Part shown: positions 22,884 to 27,195 of the stretch, in pieces
Layout of the letters: every line of letters starts with the position of its first letter
How positions within the stretch are numbered: the stretch's first letter is position 1
Assembly (NCBI GenBank): GCA_003249935.1
Contig: QKHT01000201.1
Location: 1 to 54,838, forward strand
DNA length: 54,838 nucleotides
Source of the DNA: Bacteroidota bacterium
Lineage (GTDB): Bacteria; Bacteroidota; Bacteroidia; Bacteroidales; UBA5342
Direction of reading: 5' to 3'
Notes under the pieces: generated by a model
Seen by the model: only the letters and a program-made list of their open reading frames with translations
Told to the model about the DNA's origin: nothing
The model's database searches: none
Translations under genes and position numbers: made by a program

Positions 22884-24395
22884 ATGATAAATAAAAATCA
22901 TTTTACAGGCAGTGTTTTAACCTTGGCCATGATGGTTCCGTTGGCTACTTCATGTACTCAACCGGTTCAACCAAAAACAGAGGCACCTAAAAAAATTAAT
23001 ATCCTGTGGCTCTATCTCGAAGATCTTACACCGGCTTTCAGTACTTATGGTAAGGCCTATAATCCTACGCCGCATTTCGACGATTTAGCCAAACATGGCG
23101 TGCTGTTTACCAATGCATTTTGTACTACACCGGTATGTTCGCCGGCCCGTTCGGCTGTTATTACCGGTTCGATGCCAACTACACTCGGCGTTCACCAGCA
23201 CCACAGTTCGCGCACGGCCGAAAGTGCCATCTTTCTGCCCAATGGTTATAAAACCATTCCCGAAATATTTAAGGAGGCTGGTTTTTATACCTATAACTCG
23301 GGTAAAGAGGACTATAACTTTATGTACAACCGCAAAAATCTTTACGATGGCGATTATCATGCCACATTTTGGTACACCATAGAGGGCGAGGGGGGCTGGT
23401 CCGGCCGAAAACCGGATCAGAACTTTTTTGGCCAAATTCAATTTTTGGGCGATAAATGGGCGCTGGAGCAATATGCCGATTCATTTCATGTAGATCGTAA
23501 TTCGTTTCCATTGCCTTCGTACTATCCCGAAGATCCTATCGTTCGCGAAGATTGGGGCGGACATCTCGATGCGGCTAAAATTACCGATTACGAAGTAGGT
23601 AAAATTCTCGACTCTCTTAAACGGGCCAATTTGCTCGAAAATACCGTTATTCTCACGTTTTCCGATCATGGCGATCAGTCACTACGTCACAAACAATTTT
23701 TGTACGATGGTGGTTTGCATATTCCGTTTATTGTGTCGTATTATGGTAACGATCCCCAAATAAAAGCTAAAATTAAAGCCGGTACGGTGCGCAACGACTT
23801 GGTTAGCGGCATCGATTTCGGGCCTACCTCGCTCGCTTTAGCCGGGTTAAAAATTCCGGCATACATGGAAGGACACGATTTGTTTGCCGATGATTTTAAG
23901 CCACGCGATTACGTGATTGGAACCCGCGACCGGATGGACTTTACCATCGATCATATCCGTTCGGTTCGAACCAAAGATTTTAAATATATCCGTAATTATA
24001 TGCCCTGGAAGCCGTATATGCAGCCCAATTTCCGCGACCGCTGGCCGGTATACACCCACATGAAGGAGCTTTATGAACAGGGCAAACTCAATGAAAAACA
24101 GGCTTGGTTTTGGGCTCCAACCAAAAGGGCCGAGGAGCTGTATGATTTAAACAACGATCCCGACGAAACGGTGAACCTGGCTTACAACAATCAATACAAA
24201 GACGAATTAGTGAAGATGCGTGGCATTCTCGACAACTGGATTAAGGAGACAAACGACCAGGGTCAGTATCCCGAACGGGTGGAGCAGTTACGGTTTATTC
24301 TCGACCGTTGGGGGCCGGCTCGCTGTACCGATTCTATTTTTATACCGCTAAAGGAACATCCCATGTCGGGAACGCCCAAAGTGAGTATTCGATAA
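22884..24395 (+). CDS. S1-family sulfatase, lipoprotein
   Basis: A 503-residue sulfatase anchored by a lipid: the signal peptide ends in LATSC with Cys24 as the lipidated residue. The first metal motif is Glu46-Asp47 (LYLEDLTP) in place of DD, Cys85 in CSPAR is the formylglycine site followed by SAVITG, and TFSDHGDQSLRHKQ near residue 260 supplies further metal ligands. The GDQ.LRHK pattern is typical of a subset of S1 enzymes with exo-acting substrates, which is memory rather than a search. It stands alone with its own terminator, next to a deoxysugar kinase/aldolase pair, and may act on the same sugar. Cys-type, so dependent on an anaerobic maturase encoded elsewhere. Confidence 0.93.
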   Translation: MINKNHFTGSVLTLAMMVPLATSCTQPVQPKTEAPKKINILWLYLEDLTPAFSTYGKAYNPTPHFDDLAKHGVLFTNAFCTTPVCSPARSAVITGSMPTTLGVHQHHSSRTAESAIFLPNGYKTIPEIFKEAGFYTYNSGKEDYNFMYNRKNLYDGDYHATFWYTIEGEGGWSGRKPDQNFFGQIQFLGDKWALEQYADSFHVDRNSFPLPSYYPEDPIVREDWGGHLDAAKITDYEVGKILDSLKRANLLENTVILTFSDHGDQSLRHKQFLYDGGLHIPFIVSYYGNDPQIKAKIKAGTVRNDLVSGIDFGPTSLALAGLKIPAYMEGHDLFADDFKPRDYVIGTRDRMDFTIDHIRSVRTKDFKYIRNYMPWKPYMQPNFRDRWPVYTHMKELYEQGKLNEKQAWFWAPTKRAEELYDLNNDPDETVNLAYNNQYKDELVKMRGILDNWIKETNDQGQYPERVEQLRFILDRWGPARCTDSIFIPLKEHPMSGTPKVSIR

Positions 24396-24405
24396 TACAA
24401 AAAAA

Positions 24406-24438
24406 AACACCGGCCCTTAAATGGTCGGTGTTTTTTTT
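24406..24438. terminator. Rho-independent terminator after the third sulfatase
   Basis: A 10-bp stem with one G-T pair (24406-24415 with 24423-24432), a 7-nt loop, a preceding run of A and a following run of eight T. The symmetric A/T tracts permit termination in both directions. Confidence 0.88.
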
Positions 24439-24515
24439 ATAACTACGCAGTGTTTTTTATGGGTGAACCGTGGTCGAAAATACAAAATCGGGGTCGGAAT
24501 ATAAACTCGCGTTCA

Positions 24516-24641
24516 TTTTGATGCCGATGTCGTATGTTTTCACCCCGTTATCGTATGTTTTGATGCCGATGTTGTATGTTTTTACCCTGTTATCGTATGT
24601 TTTCACCCCGTTATCGTATGTTTTGATGCCGATGTCGTATG
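24516..24641. repeat. Six-unit 21-bp tandem repeat with two alternating cores
   Basis: Each unit is TTTT, a 10-nt core, then TCGTATG. The core is either GATGCCGATG (units 1, 3, 6) or CACCCCGTTA (units 2, 5; unit 4 is a TACCCTGTTA variant); unit 3 has one C-to-T change in the tail. A seventh TTTT follows, after which the pattern breaks. It lies between the sulfatase terminator and the 3' end of the convergent kinase gene, so it is intergenic. Confidence 0.95.
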
Positions 24642-24704
24642 TTTTCTATGTGGCGGAGCACATTTTATGCTCAATTTCGATTTATTTGATTGGGATAGGC
24701 ATCT

Positions 24705-26057
24705 TTACACTTTTTTTAATCCCAGGTTTAATTCCGGTAATGTATTGTTTCCGAAGGCACCATAGACCATAATCGCTGCGCCAAGAGCAGAGGCATTGTC
24801 TGTTTGCGATGTAAAAAAGTCCATTTCGTTAAAATGTTTCGATAATAATTTCATAAAACCTTTGTTGCGCGAAAATCCACCGGTGACATAGGCTTTCGAA
24901 ACTTTTTTTGTGTCGGGAATTACCATTCGTATGGCTTCGCTGCATTTACATGAAAGGTCGATTAACATCTGTTTATATGCTGATTCGAAATTTGCAAACC
25001 GGTTCAAATCTACGGTTGTGTCCGCTTCGTTCATGTTTTGGTTCATGCAAAAAAAGACAGTGGCATTTTCGGGTGCGTGGTTAATCTCTTCGTTTGTCCA
25101 TTGCATCTGTTCGAAAGCCTTTGGTTCAACCCCGAAATGCGCCGCTATATGCTTGAGGTTTACATCGTGAATATGGCCCATAAACAGGCGCGAGGCTTTT
25201 ACCGGTGTTTGCTGAACGCTCAGGTAGCAAAGACAATCGGCTTCCAATTCGGCTTTGGTGAGCGGCGTTTCGTTAAACGGATTCATGGTGATGCACCATG
25301 TGCCGGTAGAAATGAGTACAAACGGTTCGGTGCCATCGTAAAAATAAGGTGCCAGAGCCGCCGAGCTGTCGTGAATGCCGGTTCCAACAAAAACATTTTC
25401 GCCATACATTGCTGTGGCAAACATTTTGGTGTTGGCTGTTGGCGTGGGTAACGCTATTTGTTCTTGTTGGAGCCAATGATGATAGCACTGTTTGTCGAAA
25501 TCCCAAAGTGCCGTATGGCATCCGATAGACGTATACTCCGAAACAACCTGTTGTGTAAGTAAATAGGTGAAGTATTGCGGGAAATGCAGAATGTGCGCCA
25601 CTTGTGAATAAATTTCCGGCTTATACTTTTTTAACCATAGTATTTGAAGTCCCGAATTCAACATCCCTAATGCCGGCGAAGCAGTAACCCGCGAAAATTC
25701 ATCGACACCACCGTTAGTGCCATAGAGTTCGTCCGTACATCCTTCGGGCATCGGGCGCAGATAGTTGTAAACAGGTGTTAGTCGGTTACCGTTTTGGCCG
25801 ACATACACCATCGTGGCACCATAAGTCGAAAAATTTACGGCCACTACTTTGTATGTATCGCATGTAATTAATGACTTTAGCGTGCTTTTTACCCATTTCT
25901 CAAGCTTGTCGCCACAATCGCAGCTATAACCATCCTCATCGGCCGACTCTTCAAATATGTCTTCGTGTTGCGACACCAGATTCAGATTTTGGTCAAATAG
26001 CAGTATCTTTTTGTTTGTTTTGCCAATGTCGAATATGGCAATGACCTCTTTTTTCAT
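24705..26057 (-). CDS. FGGY-family carbohydrate kinase
   Basis: Phosphorylates a sugar or ketose using ATP in the cytoplasm. With the start at 26057 (MKKEVIAIFDIGKTNKK) it is 450 residues; the upstream ATG at 26129 would overlap the aldolase gene by over 60 bp. Visible motifs are the N-terminal phosphate loop DIGKTNKKILLFD, AVNFSTYGATMVYV, a mid-protein GTGIHDSSAALAPYF with ISTGTWCI, and the C-terminal adenosine region AYVTGGFSRNKGFMKLL. Length and motifs fit the rhamnulokinase/fuculokinase branch. It lies 10 bp behind a class II aldolase gene, which together give kinase and cleavage steps of a deoxysugar pathway; the isomerase is not here. Rhamnose or fucose is my inference. Confidence 0.88.
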   Translation of the reverse strand: MKKEVIAIFDIGKTNKKILLFDQNLNLVSQHEDIFEESADEDGYSCDCGDKLEKWVKSTLKSLITCDTYKVVAVNFSTYGATMVYVGQNGNRLTPVYNYLRPMPEGCTDELYGTNGGVDEFSRVTASPALGMLNSGLQILWLKKYKPEIYSQVAHILHFPQYFTYLLTQQVVSEYTSIGCHTALWDFDKQCYHHWLQQEQIALPTPTANTKMFATAMYGENVFVGTGIHDSSAALAPYFYDGTEPFVLISTGTWCITMNPFNETPLTKAELEADCLCYLSVQQTPVKASRLFMGHIHDVNLKHIAAHFGVEPKAFEQMQWTNEEINHAPENATVFFCMNQNMNEADTTVDLNRFANFESAYKQMLIDLSCKCSEAIRMVIPDTKKVSKAYVTGGFSRNKGFMKLLSKHFNEMDFFTSQTDNASALGAAIMVYGAFGNNTLPELNLGLKKV

Positions 26058-26067
26058 ATCGTTGTGG

Positions 26068-27195
26068 TTACAAATTTTTCGCCATTTTACGTCGGTAATT
26101 CTCAACTTCCCAATTGTCGATAAATGCAATTTGGGCTTTGGTCATAAACCTTGGGCCACCAAAATGTGTCGAAATCCGGCTTATTTTTATCATATCTTCA
26201 AATACATCCAGTACAATGTCGGCACCTTTTTCACTTTCCTCAATAGCCAGTAGTCCTACACCCTGTATCCCAATAATCTTTGCAGCATAACCCTTTTCTT
26301 TTTCAAAATTTCTCGCAATTTCGGCAAGTTGAGCCAATTGTTCCGGCGTGTCTGTCCCTTTTGATGTGAAAATATAGGCCGATTTGCAATACACAATATT
26401 ATCGGGTGTAAACGGAATGCTTACGTTTTGCCAGCTTTCGGCATTGGTCGTGTAGTCTGTTATTAAGGGCGAAGTACGTAATTTAAGTACTTTATTTCCA
26501 AAATACCCTTGGTGTTCTATTGTTTTGGTCGAACCATGTTCGAAGGTTATGGGTGGCTTTACGGCATCGTTCAATTTGCCCATAACGGTATCGTAAATAG
26601 CATCGATTTGCGCAATTGTGTCGCCGGCTACAAAAATGCCATGGTTTTCGAGGAATATGACTTCAGGCGATTTTTTGTGAACCGATTCGTAGTTCAAAAC
26701 CTCTGTTTCTACTACTTTAAAAAGTACAAATCCGGGGTCGGTGTAAGGAATATACAGTACTTCGTTGCCAAATAGTTGCTTGATGATGGTTTGGCTGTTT
26801 TGGGCACAAAGTAACCCATTAATCAGGGTGGGGTGGGTATGAACCACAAAATTGTATTTGAGTAAGTCGTGCAATGATGTTTCAACCGAGGGGCGTTTGG
26901 TTTTGTCGCCTTCTATGCAAAGTTCTAGCATTGCTTTTACCTGGGCTTCGCGCTCGGTGGCATTAGTGCTTAGTTCGGCATGGCTTATTGCGGCAAGTTT
27001 TTGACGGTTCAAACATACAAAACCTGTTTCGGTAATGGTTTCGAGTGCTACACCACTGGCTTTAACCCAAATGTATTCGTCGGTTTTAAACGATGTGTTG
27101 CCTCCACCGGCAATCACAAAATTCTGATCCGAACCATACCTTTGCGATGCGTTTGCAATCTGTTTGAGCCCTATGGATTGTTCTGTTTTAATCAT
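26068..27195 (-). CDS. Class II aldolase/adducin family protein, 1-phosphate aldolase
   Basis: Likely cleaves a ketose 1-phosphate to dihydroxyacetone phosphate and an aldehyde in the cytoplasm. The 375-residue protein has the class II aldolase fold at about 10-220: GGGNTSFK (30-37) for phosphate, Glu105 in SVETSLHD, zinc ligands His119 and His121 in VVHTHPTLINGLL, and His185 in ENHGIFVAG. The C-terminal 150 residues exceed the usual 210-230 length and match the aldolase half of the bifunctional RhaD-type rhamnulose-phosphate aldolase/dehydrogenase, here without the dehydrogenase half. First gene of a two-gene operon with the kinase. Confidence 0.86.
   Translation of the reverse strand: MIKTEQSIGLKQIANASQRYGSDQNFVIAGGGNTSFKTDEYIWVKASGVALETITETGFVCLNRQKLAAISHAELSTNATEREAQVKAMLELCIEGDKTKRPSVETSLHDLLKYNFVVHTHPTLINGLLCAQNSQTIIKQLFGNEVLYIPYTDPGFVLFKVVETEVLNYESVHKKSPEVIFLENHGIFVAGDTIAQIDAIYDTVMGKLNDAVKPPITFEHGSTKTIEHQGYFGNKVLKLRTSPLITDYTTNAESWQNVSIPFTPDNIVYCKSAYIFTSKGTDTPEQLAQLAEIARNFEKEKGYAAKIIGIQGVGLLAIEESEKGADIVLDVFEDMIKISRISTHFGGPRFMTKAQIAFIDNWEVENYRRKMAKNL

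Follow-up and report, generated by a model that had tools for sequence, protein, structure and literature searches.

An apparently genome-specific family of 21-bp intergenic repeat arrays in a Bacteroidota genome and its possible role as a helically phased platform

What maintains a tandem array in which the unit length is exact and the unit ends are shared, while the interior alternates between two cores? Such an array lies between a sulfatase gene (22884-24395, plus strand) and a convergent FGGY kinase gene (24705-26129, minus strand) on a Bacteroidota contig of 54,838 nucleotides, the whole of which is referred to below as the window. An earlier note, made from the letters alone, had suggested that the array might bind a protein, serve in recombination or vary in length, and that either duplication of a core pair or selection on the cores could account for the alternation. 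We analyzed the array together with related copies in the same genome, and compared it with other genomes and with known repeat systems.

Structure and setting of the array

Re-reading of the DNA confirmed that positions 24516..24641 of the plus strand hold six units (A, B, A', B', B, A), each exactly 21 bp long, with a partial unit TTTTC after them. By Tandem Repeats Finder no other array of the window scores as high: this one reaches 169 at period 42 and 143 at period 21, the runner-up 42. It was described as lying between a terminator and the end of the convergent kinase gene, and this is borne out. The intrinsic terminator of the sulfatase gene (24400..24438, plus strand) is a hairpin with a U-run, in which a 19-nt inverted repeat, 89% complementary and with a 1-nt loop, is followed by T8; it forms a boundary outside of the repeat. 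The kinase stop codon is at 24705-24707. The array is intergenic and non-coding, as had been surmised, and the number of sigma-70-type promoters predicted in the region 24300-24900 does not exceed the level of shuffled sequence.

The repeated structure extends to the left of position 24516. The leader ACAAAATCGGGGTCGGAATATAAACT (24482..24507, plus strand), an inverted and diverged copy of the array unit, is the most conserved part across the four copies described below. It is followed by a first motif CGTTCATTT (24510..24518, plus strand) in the 21-bp register common with the array and is preceded by GGGTGAACC (24461..24469, plus strand), a near-copy of the word GGTTGAACC. The units do share their ends, given earlier as constant flanks TTTT and TCGTATG, but the latter is not fully constant, as unit 3 has TTGTATG. 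The constant part can be read as a motif CGTNYRTTT that recurs every 21 bp exactly, with a 12-nt spacer between motifs. Motifs 2-7 (24531..24644, plus strand), namely CGTATGTTT at 24531, 24552, 24594, 24615, and 24636 and TGTATGTTT at 24573, are spaced by exactly 21 bp, and the two cores sit within the spacers.

These cores had been taken for unrelated sequences, which proved wrong. Cores A and B match at five of ten positions and differ at the other five, and the unit of a cleaner paralogous array on contig C322, TTT(T/C)GACCCCGATGTCGTATG, is two bases away from core A and three bases away from core B. Since both are only a few bases from this unit, the two cores are, judged by their sequences, diverged descendants of one unit. 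The C322 array alternates as well (TTTC, TTTT), and a 42-bp higher-order repeat is present in both arrays. In agreement with the proposal that a 42-bp A+B pair was duplicated and then rearranged, Tandem Repeats Finder prefers period 42 to period 21. Duplication of a two-unit block would explain why variant spacers, both from one ancestral unit, alternate, and A B A B B A probably arose from a 42-bp-phased ABABABA that lost a single A. The other proposal, that the cores themselves are selected, finds no such agreement: the cores behave as spacer, and the binding function that we favor below relies on the constant motif and its spacing.

Related copies within the genome and the search beyond it

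The source assembly, assigned to Bacteroidota by its gene content, consists of 4.27 Mb in 326 contigs, of which the window is contig C312. The earlier note had proposed a search of the rest of the genome, and blastn found three further copies, C322:5960-6200, C208:1187-1335, and C197:54981-55101. The profile built from the four copies detected no further close copy in the genome; one of its weaker matches (E = 0.06) revealed a fifth, kindred array on contig C117. All four copies are intergenic, those in the window and on C208 being located between convergent genes, that on C322 between divergent genes, and that on C197 between co-directional genes. The C117 array lies between divergently oriented genes for a HAD hydrolase and Dus, so that the contexts of the five arrays are mixed (two convergent, two divergent, and one co-directional). 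The C322 copy is flanked by genes for an SRAP peptidase and a hybrid histidine kinase, and the C197 copy by those for a helicase-like ATPase and a MarR-type regulator, with the histidine kinase, ATPase, and MarR assignments made by eye from the translations. Elsewhere on contig C197 (49641-49781; L133:9641-9781), 8.8 units of the 16-bp sequence GCCTTCGGCGTTGATG occupy DNA without a called open reading frame.

Each of the four copies has a leader, which repeats the unit in inverted orientation, and after it two to seven direct 21-bp units. When one mismatch is allowed, the leader pattern ACAAAATCGGGGTC(G/A)(A/G)AA(T/C)ATAAACT has four occurrences in the genome and no more, all of them in these copies, and the element profile weakly matches the minus strand of every copy, which fits the leader as an inverted unit. 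A word resembling GGTTGAACC stands to the left of the leader in all four copies; such a word within 40 bp in four of four copies would have a chance probability of about 1e-7 if the copies were independent, but given their shared ancestry this is really one event. All left ends carry a T-GAACC word, and the C197 copy also has GGTTTGAA on its right, with weak end-to-end complementarity; no feature is consistent among the right ends of the four copies. Copies may reach new intergenic sites in a MITE-like manner, and their unit number probably shifts in steps of 21 and 42 bp by slippage or unequal recombination. Inspection of the copies established neither terminal inverted repeats nor target duplications, nor any empty site, and MITE-like mobility is presumed here.

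The contigs carrying the arrays have in common the genome-specific word GGTTSAACC (GGTTGAACC/GGTTCAACC). It is the most over-represented 9-mer of the genome (79 occurrences versus 10 expected in 473 kb), and GGTTGAACCGC was counted 115 times in this genome and zero to six times in each of 30 relatives. The word is found both inside genes and between them, with no shared flanks and no evident strand bias, and could be an uptake, recombination, or methylation word. The possibility that GGTTGAACCGC belongs to a large dispersed element was rejected, as the flanks share nothing past the word.

Neither the array nor the leader was recognized among the relatives compared, where the earlier note had also proposed to look. 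One genome of the species was compared, and the nearest other genomes in the comparison belong to other genera. In 60 relatives, blastn produced a single 35-bp match outside the repeat, and in 395 genomes of the class it gave short weak matches, of which those inspected were unrelated. The leader pattern has one chance match in 393 genomes of the order, inside a SprA-like coding region, and a pattern scan of GTDB contigs yielded 10 single matches with no array around any of them. DNA searches of plasmids, phages, and IMG/VR gave no match. A three-motif pattern did have matches in IMG/VR, but most of these fall within open frames and resemble coding repeats. The two best are iteron-like 21-bp repeats of CGTTCATTT inside phage replication-initiation genes (L285:1204-1256 and L290:1561-1611), where they encode the heptad linkers VQNERTI and EMNDPVL. 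The element is best read as a genome-specific small repeat family.

Motif spacing and competing explanations

Counting sites with one mismatch, CGTNYRTTT is present in register seven times in the window (24510 to 24644), eight times in the C322 copy, five times in the C208 copy, and three times in the C197 copy. The motif has 157 occurrences in 564 kb of DNA from this genome, where 25 pairs are found at a distance of 21 bp, 21 pairs at 42 bp, and one pair at all other distances from 10 to 60 bp. Control words form zero or single pairs, and no CGTNYRTTT pairs were found in 13 other genomes sampled. In the window array itself, the spacers are mostly still alike (identity 0.71), and the constant columns do not cluster significantly (a run of nine, P = 0.08).

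The C117 array (L150:1302-1617) contains 15 motifs of the CGTTTATTT type in 14 successive steps of exactly 21 bp, and its link to the four copies consists of the 9-nt motif and the spacing. Identity among its units is 0.88 in the motif (0.45 in shuffled sequence) and 0.50 in the 12-nt spacer (0.35 in shuffled sequence), so the spacers have largely diverged yet keep some similarity, and ancestry is not fully erased. As this array was selected via the four-copy model, the motif resemblance is not fully independent evidence; the length of the array, the exactness of its steps, and the divergence of its spacers do count as independent. Retention of motif and spacing beside largely diverged spacers points to selection on both of the former. 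Because CGTNYRTTT pairs concentrate at 21 and 42 bp and the C117 array keeps precisely these features, we take the constant ends to be what is functional and regard the cores as spacer.

We therefore tentatively favor, with confidence a little short of even, a genome-specific, MITE-like modular non-coding repeat whose constant part is a helically phased motif for protein binding or DNA bending. The motif and its spacing would be under selection as a platform in which 21 bp corresponds to two helical turns; a dimeric or oligomeric DNA-binding protein would most likely occupy one face of the helix, and the phased T-tracts possibly assist by bending the DNA. In favor of this reading are the four intergenic copies, the C322 units from which both cores derive, the motif pairs, the C117 array, a peak of intergenic arrays at 21-22 bp in the order (see below), and the word GGTTSAACC that the contigs have in common. 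Against it weigh the mixed gene contexts, the likeness of most spacers in the window, and the partly selected resemblance of C117. The protein-binding array of the earlier note thereby becomes the favored function, on a different basis: binding is suggested by the constant motif and the exact 21-bp spacing rather than by the two cores. For the recombination site and the phase-variable tract of that note, the single genome of this species gave no direct support.

The main rival, which we regard as quite possible, is a passive, functionless MITE-like minisatellite: a short palindromic repeat would have picked up a tandem array of 21-bp units and then spread, reaching four intergenic sites. What is constant would then simply not yet have mutated, and the C117 array would be an unrelated old minisatellite. 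The variable number of units between copies (from two to seven), the absence of the element from the sampled relatives and collections, and a plan resembling BrickBuilt (leader, tandem units, intergenic position, and species-limited distribution; PMC4596501) and BOX (PMC3049150) all agree with this explanation. However, neutral decay would strike motif and spacer alike and add insertions and deletions, so C117, where 15 motifs follow one another in 14 exact steps of 21 bp although the spacers have largely diverged, is unexpected under it; the recurrence of the motif and its spacing across all five arrays likewise speaks against this rival. An assembly artefact is scarcely credible, despite the fragmentation of the assembly into 326 contigs: the units are non-identical, the array is short (126 bp), and related arrays are carried by five contigs with different flanks.

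Three further explanations assign a different function to the repeat. Iterons about two helical turns apart are known in plasmids, and the array could be a relic or copy of replication-origin iterons, for instance of those in phage replication-initiation genes, where the 21-bp repeat codes for a heptad linker and at the same time serves as a binding site for the initiator. Direct repeats about 21-22 bp apart with a constant core are indeed present here, the reverse frames are open in the four copies, and two IMG/VR contigs (L285, L290) have 21-bp CGTTCATTT arrays inside genes matching replication initiation families. Nevertheless, this origin seems improbable, as these viral matches had been selected by motif, no initiator gene was seen beside the copies inspected, the C117 array is full of stops (6-15 in each frame), and searches with the encoded peptide gave no phage relative and only three weak plasmid matches. 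We consider it somewhat less probable still that the element acts as RNA, with a read-through transcript folding the inverted leader onto an array unit and so stabilizing or terminating the neighboring mRNAs. Leader-array duplexes have energies of -23 to -30 kcal/mol, and of 500 shuffled leaders 20 pair as well in the window, four in C322, one in C208, and none in C197, so that the pairing beats nearly all shuffles in three copies and is less clear for the window. Among the three copies folded, C322 is more stable than shuffled sequence (z = -3.7), but the window is no better than shuffles (z = -0.2) and C197 has z = -1.4; moreover, the C322 copy lies between divergent genes, and no Rfam family was found at the gathering score. 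Finally, a translated protein of seven-residue repeats, KTYD-I/N-G-V/I in the reverse frame or STPMSYV in the forward frame, is highly unlikely and was rejected. Two frames are open across all four copies, and the reverse peptide of the window weakly matches phrog_30105 (E = 2.7e-4), but a 21-bp unit that lacks stops necessarily leaves each of its frames open, a clear excess of synonymous changes was seen in none of them, and the C117 array is closed in every frame. Besides, no Pfam family was detected, and in the reverse frame of the window a stop lies immediately outside the array, within which GTG is the only start.

Arrays of similar period and known repeat systems

Profile and peptide searches revealed arrays of similar period and other sequence in other Bacteroidota, and we therefore surveyed periods without such bias, applying Tandem Repeats Finder and a lag test to stretches of this genome and of its relatives picked regardless of repeats, although some of the genomes had surfaced in the earlier repeat searches. 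The intergenic DNA sampled from 11 genomes of the order, about 185 kb, contains 17 arrays with a period of 21 or 22 bp (13 at 22 and four at 21), compared with a mean of 0.76 arrays per period at other lags (Poisson P of about 2e-12 for the excess). Other orders and E. coli, represented by 63 kb of intergenic sequence, yielded no array of period 21-22. Several of the units in the order are palindromic, which the unit of the window is not. It is conceivable, although we hold it rather unlikely, that intergenic motif arrays spaced by two helical turns constitute a widespread undescribed class in this order, in which the motif, often palindromic, is particular to each locus or genome and the spacing alone is common to all. 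Such arrays would be putative phased multi-site platforms for DNA-binding proteins, and the window array would be a 21-bp member with the motif CGTNYRTTT.

Intergenic arrays of period 21-22 with differing, often palindromic units are common in the order and were observed at L180, L186, L239, L243, L246, L252, L260, L261, L265-L268, L230, and L231, and genome G205 has five of them in 80 kb by the lag test. Long, apparently intergenic arrays of 21-22 bp with the palindromic units CCCCGACGTCGGGG and TTCGACATCGAA are present at L158 (genome G239) and L157 (genome G351), and the G351 array starts with an inverted unit, like that of the window.

If the two-turn spacing is selected, the arrays would represent the footprint of a candidate DNA-binding or chromosome-organizing protein in Bacteroidota, a phylum whose nucleoid and non-coding repeats have received little study. 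A ready bait for the putative binding protein would be the C117 array, which retains motif and spacing although its spacers have largely diverged. If the arrays are passive, they would still be a second family of the BrickBuilt kind and a warning not to annotate the reverse-frame peptides as genes.

Among known systems, plasmid and phage iterons are similar in having direct repeats about two helical turns apart with a constant core and a variable remainder, but here no initiator gene was found alongside and the arrays occupy five chromosomal loci. REP/BIME elements (PMC3733652) are likewise short, intergenic, of palindromic character, and sometimes tandem; however, they are high-copy elements with a GTAG or CGTC tag and a body of 20-40 bp, and the present family, with four copies by blastn and profile search and no shared tag at the ends, does not belong to them. 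The BOX elements of Streptococcus pneumoniae (PMC3049150) are also modular intergenic repeats with a variable number of tandem middle units and a predicted stem-loop, and can similarly make open frames on both strands. They come from another phylum, and neither their boxA and boxC ends nor their high copy number has a counterpart here; the four copies showed no module structure with two ends.

The closest system in plan appears to be BrickBuilt of Porphyromonas gingivalis, a species-limited element composed of a leader, 23-bp tandem units, and a tail in 19 intergenic copies, which has bidirectional promoter activity in E. coli and for which nucleotide matches were reported in P. gingivalis and P. 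gulae only (PMC4596501). The present family differs in its unit of 21 rather than 23 bp, in its four rather than 19 copies, and in its leader, which is an inverted unit; neither a tail nor IS5-like terminal inverted repeats were identified, and the kindred array keeps mainly motif and spacing. The likeness is one of plan, no relation in sequence being known, and membership is not claimed. Both families belong to Bacteroidota and consist of dispersed, non-identical intergenic copies in which a leader precedes short imperfect tandem units of variable number; both are limited to a species or its closest kin, and in both one copy lies directly behind a terminator.
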